From contig JAPLUR010000060.1 of assembly GCA_026397505.1 (NCBI GenBank), forward strand, positions 1-64,000: a stretch of 64,000 nt of DNA, given 5' to 3'. The position numbers and the translations under genes were made by a program. The stretch is from Candidatus Zixiibacteriota bacterium. GTDB lineage: Bacteria > Zixibacteria > MSB-5A5 > GN15 > PGXB01. Numbering within the stretch: the stretch's first letter is position 1; the number at the start of each line of letters is the position of its first letter. The notes under the pieces are model-generated. The model saw only the letters and a program-made list of their open reading frames with translations. It did not search any database and was not told where the DNA came from. Of the stretch, positions 23,035-27,020 are shown piece after piece.

Positions 23035-23063
23035 TTGCATAAATGGACAGCATTGACTAAATT
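23035..23063 (+). promoter_or_regulatory. candidate exosortase-operon promoter, leaderless geometry
   Basis: TTGCAT (23035-23040), 17-base spacer, TAAATT (23058-23063), six bases (GACCGC), ATG at 23070. The boxes are weaker than in the other cases, but the spacing is identical and no Shine-Dalgarno precedes the ATG. Confidence 0.4.
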
Positions 23064-23069
23064 GACCGC

Positions 23070-23657
23070 ATGGGTACACCGTCGAGAGTCCCCGAAGGAC
23101 CATCAGACGACAATATGCAGAAGACCGATCGCGCCGGGCGAAAAATTTCGCCAATGGTGAAGTTTGTTCTTCTGTTTCTGGTCTTTCTGCTGATTGTCGG
23201 TGTAGTGTTCTCGCAGTTGATTACCCGCTACCACGATAATATAATCTGGCTGATGCGCCTGACTGCGACCTTAACCGGGGCTATCGTGTCGATTTTCAGC
23301 AGTAATGTCTTCTATTCGGGCGTAATTGTCAGTTTTCGGGGATTCAGCGTGGAAATAATCGATGAATGCACCGGGCTGTTCGAGATGCTCATTTACATTG
23401 CCGCGGTGGCAGCTTTTTCCACATCTATCCGCAAGAAACTCCTCGGCATGGCAATCGGAATCCCGGCCATATTCCTGTTTAATCTGGCGAGGATAATATT
23501 CCTTCTCCTGGCGGGCGCCTATTCCAAATCGCTCTTTGATTTCATGCACCTCTATTTCTGGCAGGCAACTCTGATTATCATGATATCTTCGGTCTGGATA
23601 GGCTGGCTCTATTTAGTGGTTTATCGTGAAAAAAGAACTTTGGAAGTTTCTTCTTAA
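23070..23657 (+). CDS. xrtH: exosortase, XrtH-like
   Basis: A 195-residue membrane enzyme with five or six hydrophobic segments and the exosortase/archaeosortase active-site triad: Cys100 in IDECTGLFE, Arg141 in FNLARII and His160 in FMHLYFWQ. Exosortases are transpeptidase-like proteins thought to cut C-terminal sorting signals and pass the substrate on toward the surface. The small size, and a facing gene whose product ends in an IPTLxxWG-CTERM-like signal, point to the XrtH class. The start at 23070 is supported by promoter spacing; internal ATGs at 23115 and 23154 are possible. The next gene overlaps by 32 bases. Confidence 0.85.
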   Translation: MGTPSRVPEGPSDDNMQKTDRAGRKISPMVKFVLLFLVFLLIVGVVFSQLITRYHDNIIWLMRLTATLTGAIVSIFSSNVFYSGVIVSFRGFSVEIIDECTGLFEMLIYIAAVAAFSTSIRKKLLGMAIGIPAIFLFNLARIIFLLLAGAYSKSLFDFMHLYFWQATLIIMISSVWIGWLYLVVYREKRTLEVSS

Positions 23658-24135
23658 GCTGGCGATTTTTTCGCTGATATTGGGTTTCCTCTGGTTCTGG
23701 AAACTGCAGGATTTTTATCCCTTTCTGCTCAAACCGGCAGCCATTCCCTTTTTCCAGTGGGTCGGCGTAAAGAAGTGGTATCTGTCATGGGTGCTGGATC
23801 ATTTTACCAATATTGTGCCGTACATAGCGCTGGTGCTGGCTACCCCGGGGATACTCAAGAGATGGAAATGGACGCTGTTGGCGCTGGTCGGCGGGCTGGT
23901 GGCGCTGATGATTTCGCATCTATTTCTTTCGTGGATGGTTTATCATTACTCCGCCGAATATCAATTCACCAAATCATTTTTCCGCAGGACTTTTCCTTTT
24001 TTCCTGTTGAGCGACGGCCTGCCGCTGCCGCTTTGGCTTTTATTCTATCCCAGGGTGCTTCCGGAATTATTCCGGTTTATTAAACTGGGCAGGAAAGATA
24101 AAGCAAGCGAAACAGAATCGAATTTATCGCCCTAA
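23626..24135 (+). CDS. exosortase-associated small membrane protein
   Basis: A 169-residue protein starting with GTG inside the exosortase gene. It has about four hydrophobic stretches (LAIFSLILGFLWFWKL, FTNIVPYIALVLATPGIL, WTLLALVGGLVALMISHLFL, FFLLSDGLPLPLWLLFY) and a charged C-terminal tail RKDKASETESN. Its position and character match the membrane proteins that accompany XrtH-type exosortases, probably forming a complex with the enzyme. That assignment rests mainly on context. Confidence 0.7.
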   Translation: MKKELWKFLLKLAIFSLILGFLWFWKLQDFYPFLLKPAAIPFFQWVGVKKWYLSWVLDHFTNIVPYIALVLATPGILKRWKWTLLALVGGLVALMISHLFLSWMVYHYSAEYQFTKSFFRRTFPFFLLSDGLPLPLWLLFYPRVLPELFRFIKLGRKDKASETESNLSP

Positions 24136-24142
24136 ATGATTA

Positions 24143-24225
24143 GGGGAAGCGTCGGAGCATTTGTGGTTCCGGCGTCTCCCCATATCCGAATTGGGGAATG
24201 GCCAGGATTAAGACCGGACCATTTC
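24143..24225. terminator. two hairpins between converging exosortase and substrate genes
   Basis: GGGGAAGCGTCGGA...TCCGGCGTCTCCCC (24143-24181, with two mismatches and a wobble) and GGAATGG...CCATTTCC (24195-24225). They lie directly after the exosortase-partner gene and before the end of the facing substrate gene. There is no clear T-run, so factor-independent termination is uncertain. Confidence 0.4.
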
Positions 24226-24248
24226 CATTCCTTTATCCGCTATTCAGA

Positions 24249-24812
24249 TCAGCCAGCGTGTCTGGTCGCCTTTTTGGCCCTGATAACAAAGGCTGTCGCA
24301 AAAATTAAAAGAGCGATGAGTACAGCCAGCCCATAAGTAGTCAAGGACGGCACCCCTGCTTTCTGGTTGAAAGTAACATACATGTCCGCCTCGTTCTGCC
24401 ATTTAATGGTATCAGGAGCAACCGGTCCGGCATGTGCGACAATCATCTGTTTGACCTTGAAATGCCACACTCCTACGTCGGCAGGGTCGCAGAACTGAAG
24501 AGTTTTCTGCTGCCCAAGGGCATTGAAAGTCAGCGGAGCCTTGGGAGAGCCGCCGGGGTAAACGATGTTAGTGATCACTAATGAATCCCACGTGCTGTCT
24601 CCAGGGATGAGGTCCTTGATATTATCCACATAAGTCTGAGTATAGCATCCGCCGGGTGCCGAAACCAGATCCTGATAGTAATCGCCGAGAACAGGACCGC
24701 TATCGACCGTAATAATATTCTCCGGATGGAGATCTATCTCCGCCGAGACTCCGGGCGTCAATAGAAGAAAAAGCGCCAGCGAAAGTCCAGCCATAAAAAC
24801 CCTACGCATCAT
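24249..24812 (-). CDS. exported protein with IPTL-CTERM-like sorting signal (likely exosortase substrate)
   Basis: About 187 residues: a signal peptide (MRRVFMAGLSLALFLLL..GVSA), a beta-rich domain of about 125 residues with two cysteines (GGCYTQ and QFCDPAD) that could form a disulfide, then a tripartite C-terminal signal. The signal consists of VPSLTTYG (about residues 154-161), the hydrophobic segment LAVLIALLIFATAFVI and the basic tail RAKKATRH. VPSLTTYG is a variant of the IPTLxxWG motif recognised by XrtH-type exosortases. GGAGG lies before three consecutive ATGs; the second or third (24812/24809) has the best spacing. Lone substrate next to its predicted enzyme. Function of the mature domain unknown. 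Confidence 0.8.
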   Translation of the reverse strand: MMRRVFMAGLSLALFLLLTPGVSAEIDLHPENIITVDSGPVLGDYYQDLVSAPGGCYTQTYVDNIKDLIPGDSTWDSLVITNIVYPGGSPKAPLTFNALGQQKTLQFCDPADVGVWHFKVKQMIVAHAGPVAPDTIKWQNEADMYVTFNQKAGVPSLTTYGLAVLIALLIFATAFVIRAKKATRHAG

Positions 24813-24856
24813 CATTTCCTCCATGGTTTATTCATATTAGAATTTCGAAATCAATT

Positions 24857-25543
24857 TTAAATGCAAAGACATTCCGGTCGCGGGGGGGCGCGGCTTTCCG
24901 AGATGCTATAAAAGTCCGTGCCGACAAAAGGATTGACTTGAGTTGATATCAGGGTTCGATCCGCGCAATTAACGCCTGTCCGACCCAATCTGATTTTTGA
25001 AAAAGCTTTTTCAAAAGTAAGGATTAATATGGAATTAAGGAATACAATCAAGAAGGATACTAGAAGGGAACCGAATAGAGAGCCTATTCTGATCAGAAGA
25101 CCAGAGTTTTCAGAGGCCGGAAGGAAGATGCCGCCCAGATTTGTCAGATGGCGCAGAGCATATTCCAGAGGCAACCATAAAATGGCGATGATGAGGGGAT
25201 TGAAACCCCAATGCTTCCTGATTCGGTTGACAGCTAATGCGAAAACGGCAAGAATGAATCCCATCGCCACCAAATTGAAAAGGAAGTGAGGTGGGGCATT
25301 TATCAATTCCGCGGGATATGCGACGGTAGCATATGCTATTGACAGAATTATCCCGCTCTCAATTGAGCCGCGGATGTCTGTTGTGCCGGCTTTCCATAGA
25401 AACGGGACCAGCGCAAACAGGGACAAGAAACCAATGCCGGGGTAGAAATGAGCCAACAAGAGAAGAAACGCCGAACTCCCCGCCCAGACAAAGTGCTCCA
25501 AGAATTGAATATGCTTAGAGTATCGCTCCAATTTTTCTCCCAT
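24857..25543 (-). CDS. membrane protein resembling the N-terminal half of apolipoprotein N-acyltransferase (no nitrilase domain)
   Basis: A 228-residue protein with about six hydrophobic segments. The pattern FYPGIGFLSLFALVPFLWKA followed later by IIAILWLPLEYALRHLTNLG recalls the membrane part of Lnt (an LxxFALVPLL helix, then a W.P..E.LR motif before the periplasmic loop). Lnt needs a nitrilase-fold domain after these helices, and here the protein stops with a short polar tail instead. It may be a lineage-specific membrane partner or a truncated Lnt. It sits directly upstream of the exosortase substrate on the same strand, 45 bases away, and may be co-transcribed with it. Confidence 0.55.
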   Translation of the reverse strand: MGEKLERYSKHIQFLEHFVWAGSSAFLLLLAHFYPGIGFLSLFALVPFLWKAGTTDIRGSIESGIILSIAYATVAYPAELINAPPHFLFNLVAMGFILAVFALAVNRIRKHWGFNPLIIAILWLPLEYALRHLTNLGGIFLPASENSGLLIRIGSLFGSLLVSFLIVFLNSILILTFEKAFSKIRLGRTGVNCADRTLISTQVNPFVGTDFYSISESRAPPRPECLCI

Positions 25544-25991
25544 CCCTCAGACCCGCTTCAGAAATTCCGGCACCAATTCGGACTTGATTTCCAGTTCTGT
25601 CACGTCCTTAAAGGCCGATGATGGAAATCCAGATAGCTAGTCCGCAAAAGCCAACAGGGTTTGTCAGGTAGTCAGAGATAAAAAATCGCGATGAAATAAC
25701 TATCGATGCAAGTCACCCAATTATGTTGTTAATATATTGCGGAGCCAGCCATCTGTCAAGCTCATTTTGTTCCGCTTTGCCCGCCAGTCAACCCGTTTTG
25801 TCATGCTATCGCATTCTGTTGCCGTATAACTCGAGGAGTGTCTTCATAATAAAAATGGTTTAAGGCGCTCCTCTAATCCTACTCTTTTTTTTATTGCTTT
25901 TTGGGGGAGAGTCGATTAAACTACCGGTCAGCCTGAAAGATATGGATATCAGACATTGACTTTGAATAGGAAAGAGACTTAAGGAAACAGA
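25544..25991. other. intergenic region upstream of mreB, no gene seen
   Basis: About 450 bases of lower-GC sequence between divergent genes. A short leftward reading frame ends in TGA at 25545-25547, with about 29 in-frame codons after a TAG and no ATG; it may be a remnant of an upstream gene. A TTGACT at about 25958 lies near mreB without a convincing -10. No RNA gene recognised. Confidence 0.5.
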
Positions 25992-27020
25992 TTGGCCTTC
26001 TTTGATTTTATCTCAAATGATGTCGGAATCGACTTAGGAACTGCCAATACTCTCGTATTTGTCCGCGGGCAGGGGATAGTCCTTAATGAACCATCGGTGG
26101 TGGCGGTGGAGAAATCCACCGGCAAAGTGCTGGCAGTCGGTTCGGCGGCCAAAGAGATGCTGGGGCGCACCCCCGGTGAAATCGCCGCCATAAGACCGCT
26201 TAAAGACGGTGTCATAGCCGATTTTGAAATTTCCGAAAAACTTCTGTCCGATTTTATCCGGCGGGTCGTCAAACACAAATATTTGATGAAGCCGCGGATT
26301 GTGATTTCGGTTCCTTCGGGTATCACGGAAGTCGAAAAGCGGGCGGTGCGCGACTCGGCCGAGAATGCCGGCGCCCGCGAGGTTTTTCTGCTTCAGGAGC
26401 CGATGGCGGCGGCCATTGGAGTCGGTCTGCCGGTCGACCAACCCTCGGGAATAATGGTTATTGATGTCGGCGGCGGGACATCTGAAATAGCGGTTATCGC
26501 CTTGAATGGAATAGTCAACAATATCTCGGTGCGTATTGCCGGTGATGAGATGAACGACGCCATTATCATGTATCTCAAGAAAAATTATAACCTTCTGATT
26601 GGGGAATTGACGGCGGAGGAAATAAAGATCAAAATTGGTTCAGCTTTTCCTCTGGAGAAGGAACTTTCGCAGGAGGTTAAGGGGCGCGATCTGGTGGCCG
26701 GGGTGCCGAAGACTCTGAAGCTTTCTTCGGTACAGGTACGTGAGGCGCTGGTCGAGCCGATTGAAAGAATCGTCGAGGCGGTGCGGCAATCACTCGAAAG
26801 AACCCCTCCCGAGCTCGCCTCGGATATCCTTGACCGCGGCATAATTCTGACCGGTGGCGGCGCGCTTCTGCGCGGCCTCGACCGTCGGCTTCGTCAGGAA
26901 ACTAATCTTCCAGTCCATATAGCCGATGACCCATTAACCTGCGTGGTCCGGGGAACCGGCAAAGTGCTCGAAAATATGCAGCAATACTCAAAAGTGCTGA
27001 TAAAGAGCCGCCGCGACTAA
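25992..27020 (+). CDS. mreB: rod-shape-determining protein MreB
   Basis: A 342-residue actin-like ATPase that forms filaments under the inner membrane and guides lateral wall synthesis. Actin-fold nucleotide motifs are present: phosphate 1 [12 protein letters not shown] (11-22), phosphate 2 [13 protein letters not shown] (about 157) and the adenosine motif [13 protein letters not shown] (about 290). The start is TTG with TAAGGA upstream; the typical N-terminus [17 protein letters not shown] supports it. No mreC follows immediately, so this copy is outside the usual mreBCD cluster. Confidence 0.97.

Follow-up and report, generated by a model that had tools for sequence, protein, structure and literature searches.

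The locus considered here lies on contig C60 of a 3.4 Mb Candidatus Zixiibacteriota genome, within the 64,000-nucleotide stretch of DNA that was analysed as a whole (the window), and raises the question of how an exosortase, its overlapping membrane partner and a single secreted protein encoded convergently to them are related. The initial annotation proposed a dedicated pair of one enzyme and one substrate. The features on which this proposal bears are the following:

23070–23657, + strand: short exosortase of 195 aa, in a clade sister to canonical XrtH (open reading frame, profiles and tree)
23367–23369, 23490–23492 and 23547–23549, + strand: exosortase catalytic codons for Cys, Arg and His, respectively
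23626–24135, + strand: small polytopic partner of a family of its own, not NF041730, overlapping the exosortase gene by 32 nt
24249–24824, − strand: predicted secreted exosortase substrate, likely start at 24812, with a signal peptide and two cysteines in the mature part
24330–24353, − strand: sorting motif VPSLTTYG
24252–24329, − strand: hydrophobic helix and basic tail LAVLIALLIFATAFVIRAKKATRHAG

The enzyme belongs to the exosortase/archaeosortase superfamily, with matches to TIGR04178 at 60 bits and to Pfam EpsH at 43 bits, and the catalytic triad that had been recognized from the start (C100, R141 and H160) is invariant in an alignment of 15 homologues. The overlapping membrane partner was also correctly identified, and the order of the two genes is kept as an operon in relatives. 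The name XrtH stands only in part: the score against TIGR04177 (87.1 bits) passes the curated XrtH cut-off of 86 bits, but archaeosortase B scores better, in a tree of 63 short exosortases a 100/100 branch separates the window type from the canonical XrtH type, and none of 12 partners matches the XrtH-associated family NF041730 in a profile search. Comparison of the window-type and canonical XrtH-type partner families also gave no convincing homology. Those relatives of the exosortase that have names are from Candidatus Zixibacteria, a lineage little described, and from Myxococcota, where the resemblance is more remote; the literature searched (which excluded most subscription journals and preprints) has no paper on Zixibacteria exosortases.

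The convergent secreted protein is as first described, ending in VPSLTTYG-LAVLIALLIFATAFVI-RAKKATRHAG, and no other open reading frame in the window bears such a sorting signal. Its mature part is weakly predicted to be all-beta; the structure model is beta-rich, with a pLDDT of 61 that is too weak for structure search. Because a profile search of the genome finds the signal at E = 9.5e-14, and because the convergent arrangement of exosortase-partner operon and substrate recurs in other genomes (G013, G006, G072 and G058), the signal is not a chance resemblance. The TIGR04174 (IPTL-CTERM) profile does not find the window substrate, and a related VPTLTQYG protein scores 19.3 bits against its cut-off of 20.5. 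The motif itself drifts, as seen in a homologue from genome G009 (L077:15-545) that is 40% identical to the window substrate and reads GSTLTTAG instead of VPSLTTYG; the same genome also encodes a YGPSLSTVG protein (L174). That the window exosortase cleaves at VPSLTTYG we infer from their co-occurrence only.

The genome encodes a second exosortase, a canonical XrtH on contig C91 (120.8 bits) whose partner is related to NF041730 but falls below the cut-off (29.7 against 35 bits). A genome-wide scan with the signal profile gives exactly six strong matches, three of the form VP[ST]LTxYG (the window substrate and two VP[ST]LT[QK]YG proteins on contig C85) and three IPTLTEWG proteins (two beside the C91 XrtH and one on contig C132). 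Signal class follows exosortase type. The window-type signal reads VP[ST][LM][TS]x[YW]G, and in the alignment its hydrophobic stretch is shorter by one residue; the variant of IPTLxxWG noted at the outset goes with the window exosortase type: on signal lists compiled by hand, the residue before the W or Y is E in 9 of 9 signals from genomes with canonical XrtH only ([IV]PTLxEW[GA]) and in 2 of 19 from genomes with the window type only (p = 8e-6). Among the 30 relatives sampled first, only genomes with a short exosortase have signals at E < 1e-3, and the long exosortase of the 280-aa type is common in the phylum, in relatives that do not have these signals. A third exosortase-family gene (L243:962-2436, on G000:C39) encodes 280 aa and is followed by an EpsI-like gene.

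The proposal of one enzyme dedicated to one substrate agrees with the close convergent layout kept in the four genomes above and with the correspondence between signal class and exosortase type, but the two additional same-class proteins on C85 refute it as stated. The IPTLTEWG proteins and the second XrtH also count against it, genomes G010 and G007 each have several signal proteins of the same class, and in G003, G007 and G010 the substrates lie elsewhere, with no cassette of substrate and upstream gene (described below) adjoining the exosortase operon. We therefore regard strict pairing as very improbable. The presence of two exosortase types with separable signals in one genome is useful for asking how exosortases choose their cargo.

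A further gene, omitted from the initial annotation, lies directly upstream of the window substrate on the same strand and is the larger finding at this locus. Its features are the following:

24857–25543, − strand: LNT_N-like membrane protein of 228 aa with six helices, proposed arrest protein and first gene of the pair
24881–24892, − strand: RAPP codons CGC GCC CCC CCG, residues 218–221 of the LNT_N-like protein, proposed arrest site
24893–25018, − strand: spacer from the end of helix 6 (residue 175) to RAPP, with residues 192–215 of low model confidence
25731–25759, − strand: sigma-70-like promoter TTGACA-17-TATATT, 11/12, by consensus match only

The encoded protein matches only the N-terminal domain of Lnt (LNT_N, PF20154), a match found in 16 of 26 members of its family, and the best PDB matches to its structure model are all Lnt (6nwr, 5n6h), at a Foldseek E of only 0.15. 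It shares with Lnt this N-terminal membrane domain and differs in having no C-terminal nitrilase (CN_hydrolase) domain, and is therefore no acyltransferase; a true Lnt, which has no RxPP motif, is encoded elsewhere in the genome. Other LNT_N-like genes of the same genome precede one C91 substrate, the C132 substrate and both C85 substrates. The upstream promoter, if used, would leave a long 5′ leader.

Homologues of this protein were gathered by homology and not by motif, and 48 complete ones were read, 34 in a first set and 14 in a second set from other families of the phylum (the phylum scan gave more matches than those read). There are several conspicuous features. First, in an alignment of 26 LNT_N-like proteins, most of them only 18–33% identical to that of the window, the R, P and P of an R-x-P-P motif are the sole invariant columns besides Met1. 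Second, the motif lies near the C-terminus throughout, with R in 48/48 and PP in 48/48, x being A in 27, G in 18, S in 2 and V in 1, and is preceded by a looser [YF]-[LS]-[VLI]-P-[ED]. (The motif is missing from three further matches, of which two are truncated at contig ends and the third, at L223:3038-4346, is a 91-aa remnant that ends in LSPPPANCA before a VPTTTPYG protein and is possibly a decayed arrest gene.) Third, R[AGS]PP occurs in the last 40 residues of none of 639 non-family genes of the same loci, and anywhere in only two. Finally, all four codons vary synonymously and their third positions are free, so the constraint acts on the protein.

The motif is also held at a set distance from the membrane. 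From the centre of the last helix to the first Pro there are 52 residues in 23 of the 34 proteins of the first set and 52–60 in 31 (the exceptions are 48, 36 and 14, the latter two arising where the script took a hydrophobic tail stretch for the helix), and again 52 in 11 of the 14 of the second set. Between the end of helix 6 and the motif there are 43–45 residues (residues 175 to 220 in the window protein). The sequence in between is not conserved and is mostly of low model confidence, and between 0 and 24 residues follow the motif. The first Pro codon is 62–223 nt (median 112) from the start codon of the substrate, which places that start and its Shine-Dalgarno sequence outside a ribosome stalled at the motif.

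The association with exosortase substrates is close. An exosortase-signal protein is the next gene on the same strand after about 40 of the 48 LNT_N-like genes (29 in the first set, 10 in the second, and L235 by eye), usually within 200 nt; the other 8 have no recognised signal protein next, and where the following sequence can be read it shows either a secreted protein or the edge of the contig. Over 133 genomes of the phylum, 36 of the 51 that have a short exosortase carry the gene, as does 1 of the 82 that have none (p = 2e-19), in a hand tally that is uncorrected for relatedness, that separates short from long exosortases by match length and whose matches span a dozen families; the lone gene outside the short-exosortase group is in a 69%-complete genome. 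This co-occurrence holds for short XrtH-like exosortases only, as most of the 'exosortase-negative' genomes carry a long EpsH-type enzyme. The gene stays with the substrate even where the exosortase lies elsewhere. In the window the cassette adjoins an mreB-like gene (25992–27020), and in G003, G007 and G010 the exosortase operon is apparently also beside mreB with no cassette in between, so that cassette and operon move independently.

About 33 signal proteins do not have a LNT_N-like gene upstream, and the search for other RAPP-like short open reading frames before them found none that is convincing. The gene is likewise absent from 17 Myxococcota genomes with window-type exosortases, bar one match of 568 aa, the size of a true Lnt, so its association with substrates looks like a Zixibacteria trait. 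Nor is it strictly tied to exosortase signals, since a single 19-kb stretch (L209, G033:C1:174000-193000) has three LNT_N-like/RxPP genes, two of them lying directly ahead of genes for very large secreted repeat proteins whose ends are dockerin-like and which have no VPxL signal. In two other proteins (L049:4717-5811 and L059:7735-8037) the sorting signal is interior and further helices come after it, an arrangement like that of the 'midcut-by-XrtH' family, and a LNT_N-like/RAPP gene precedes one of them. The placement of a LNT_N-like/RAPP gene ahead of most exosortase substrates of the window's genome suggests a built-in translation brake on the synthesis of surface proteins.

RAPP and RGPP are both established ribosome arrest motifs, and for RAPP structures have been solved (PMC10951233). 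Mutagenesis of RAPP/RGPP shows that the Arg is irreplaceable, that Gly equals or surpasses Ala, that Ser is partially active and that Val is intermediate in ApdP (PMC12992588), and the residues found at the x position of the 48 LNT_N-like proteins (A, G, S and V) are the same set that this mutagenesis found to be tolerated. RAPP and RGPP are among the most avoided tetrapeptides in bacterial proteomes, yet they are enriched at the C-terminus in small membrane or secreted proteins whose genes lie upstream of regulated ones. In force-profile work, a helix ceases to pull once about 45 residues lie between its C-terminal end and the peptidyl-transferase centre (PMC7886326); the corresponding distance here is 43–45.

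On the strength of the motif, its permitted variants and its distance from helix 6, we read the LNT_N-like gene as encoding a polytopic arrest protein, and we consider it probable, as judged from sequence, that proteins of this family gate the synthesis of sorted surface proteins, the locus then being a sorting unit combined with an arrest cassette. In the first unit, the exosortase and its overlapping partner would form a membrane sorting enzyme that cleaves at VP[ST][LM][TS]x[YW]G; the second, on the opposite strand, would be a translation-arrest cassette made up of the LNT_N-like gene and the substrate. The LNT_N-like protein would insert its six helices in the membrane, and helix 6 would be at the translocon, with its C-terminus some 43–45 residues from the peptidyl-transferase centre, when R-[A/G]-P-P is reached. 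The ribosome would then stall with RAP in the P site and Pro in the A site, 0–24 codons before the stop codon, for a time set by the state of helix 6 and of the helix bundle (Sec/YidC insertion or capture by a membrane partner), and the duration of the stall would set the amount of substrate made 62–223 nt downstream. Sec/YidC insertion, the exosortase or a lipid might relieve the stall. Within this cassette model the order of the genes, the invariant motif, the fixed spacer, the co-occurrence with short exosortases and the signal classes are observed, and we infer the arrest itself, the direction of regulation and the thing sensed.

RNA folding gives no systematic support for coupling of a stall to the downstream gene by SecM-like unmasking of the ribosome binding site: the mean accessibility of that site is 0.35 in the free mRNA, 0.39 with the stalled footprint and 0.37 with the footprint moved (p = 0.89), plain folding being a weak test of such unmasking. 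As this test is negative overall, the coupling could be through local translation at the membrane or through effects beyond simple folding. Other points that count against the arrest reading are the 8 of 48 LNT_N-like genes with no recognised signal protein next, the roughly 33 signal proteins that have no such gene upstream, and the contrast with known RAPP arrest peptides, most of which are small and simple. The conservation of the six-helix domain suggests that the protein may also act after its synthesis, and the Lnt-like domain may have a second role.

Three other accounts of the motif have to be set against gating by arrest. The folding result agrees with a genuine arrest whose role is to keep the polycistronic mRNA at the translocon, in which case the substrate would be made beside the exosortase and its amount would not be gated by exposure of the ribosome binding site; the substrate start codon is indeed 62–223 nt away, outside the stalled footprint, and the two genes are on one strand and usually less than 200 nt apart. 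Known bacterial cases regulate amount, however, and folding tests unmasking only weakly, and we judge this account rather unlikely, though the least so of the three. Less likely still is that the finished protein uses R[AG]PP for docking, in which case its cytoplasmic tail would bind the exosortase, its partner or the basic tail of the substrate, with the LNT_N-like protein as a substrate-specific accessory factor and no involvement of translation. A cytoplasmic C-terminal tail fits the positive-inside topology, the six-helix domain is conserved and Lnt-like, and it is the substrates, not the exosortase, that the gene accompanies, all of which docking would explain. A docking motif in a disordered tail, however, need not hold a fixed distance to the last helix, the length after the motif is free (0–24 aa), and the motif is the exact arrest tetrapeptide with the exact published tolerance, avoided elsewhere.

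We give almost no credence to the third account, in which the R-x-P-P run is the in-frame by-product of a DNA or RNA element such as a terminator, riboswitch or GC-rich repeat. The run is GC-rich and sits in the 5′ part of the substrate mRNA, but it is always in frame with its synonymous third positions free, and neither the window nor the own-genome substrate loci have an Rfam match; an RNA element at the RAPP site was rejected on the synonymous variation of the codons.

If the arrest reading is right, it may apply well beyond this locus, and we lean slightly towards a phylum-wide system in which a polytopic, Lnt-derived, force-sensing arrest sensor is provided for each of several exosortase substrates and matches their synthesis to the capacity for membrane insertion or sorting. 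An arrest-type gene before most cassette-type substrates throughout the phylum would add a regulatory layer to exosortase biology. Neither arrest peptides nor exosortases are new in themselves; what would be new, as the sequences suggest it, is the link between them. The literature searched has no paper joining "exosortase" and "arrest peptide" and no RAPP-type arrest tied to protein sorting, and the words exosortase, sortase and CTERM are absent from the main text of the latest survey of RAPP proteins. Going by that literature, sortase-type cargo would here be seen under arrest control for the first time, and no earlier arrest protein would combine a multi-helix membrane domain with a fixed distance from helix to peptidyl-transferase centre. 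The fixed helix-to-motif distance would correspond, in nature, to the artificial constructs of force-profile analysis, and ribosome systems from E. coli or B. subtilis offer a test of the arrest reading that needs no culture of Zixibacteria.

The two units differ in how they stand to known systems. The sorting unit has its fold, triad and signal layout in common with XrtH / IPTL-CTERM (TIGR04177, TIGR04174 and NF041730), and differs in that its exosortase forms a separate clade, with a partner family and a signal, VP[ST]LTx[YW]G, that are distinct from those of XrtH. For the cassette, the closest likeness is to RAPP arrest peptides, which are known from positions upstream of Sec/YidC genes and, since 2022–2025, also upstream of metal-uptake and redox genes. 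One of these, CruR of Bordetella, is a RAPP uORF before a TonB receptor, and resembles the LNT_N-like gene in that the controlled gene is outside the Sec/YidC pathways; CruR responds to copper and has no relation to LNT_N or to sorting (PMC9426467). Features by which the RQH family is recognized (PMC10987492) are largely present here: a C-terminal RAPP-like motif kept in homologues (48/48 RxPP), a transmembrane localisation (six helices) and more than 30 residues between the localisation signal and the motif (43–45 from the end of helix 6). The RQH genes lie upstream of secA/secDF, and the family is further defined by a place upstream of sec or yidC and no annotated function, whereas the LNT_N-like gene is not upstream of sec or yidC and is followed by an exosortase-signal or other secreted protein. 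By analogy, the LNT_N-like protein would work like an RQH-type arrest peptide, and we do not file it as RQH. With ApdA, ApdP and the RQH family (PMC7897499, PMC10987492, PMC10951233, PMC12992588) it shares the C-terminal RAPP-like motif, membrane localisation, a spacer of more than 30 aa, the same tolerated substitutions and a position directly upstream of the presumed regulated gene. Known RAPP arrest peptides are mostly small and simple, with a signal peptide or a transmembrane segment; the LNT_N-like protein is instead a six-helix, Lnt-like protein of about 230 aa, its spacer from the last helix is fixed, and the gene downstream of it encodes an exosortase substrate and not a component of the Sec/YidC machinery.
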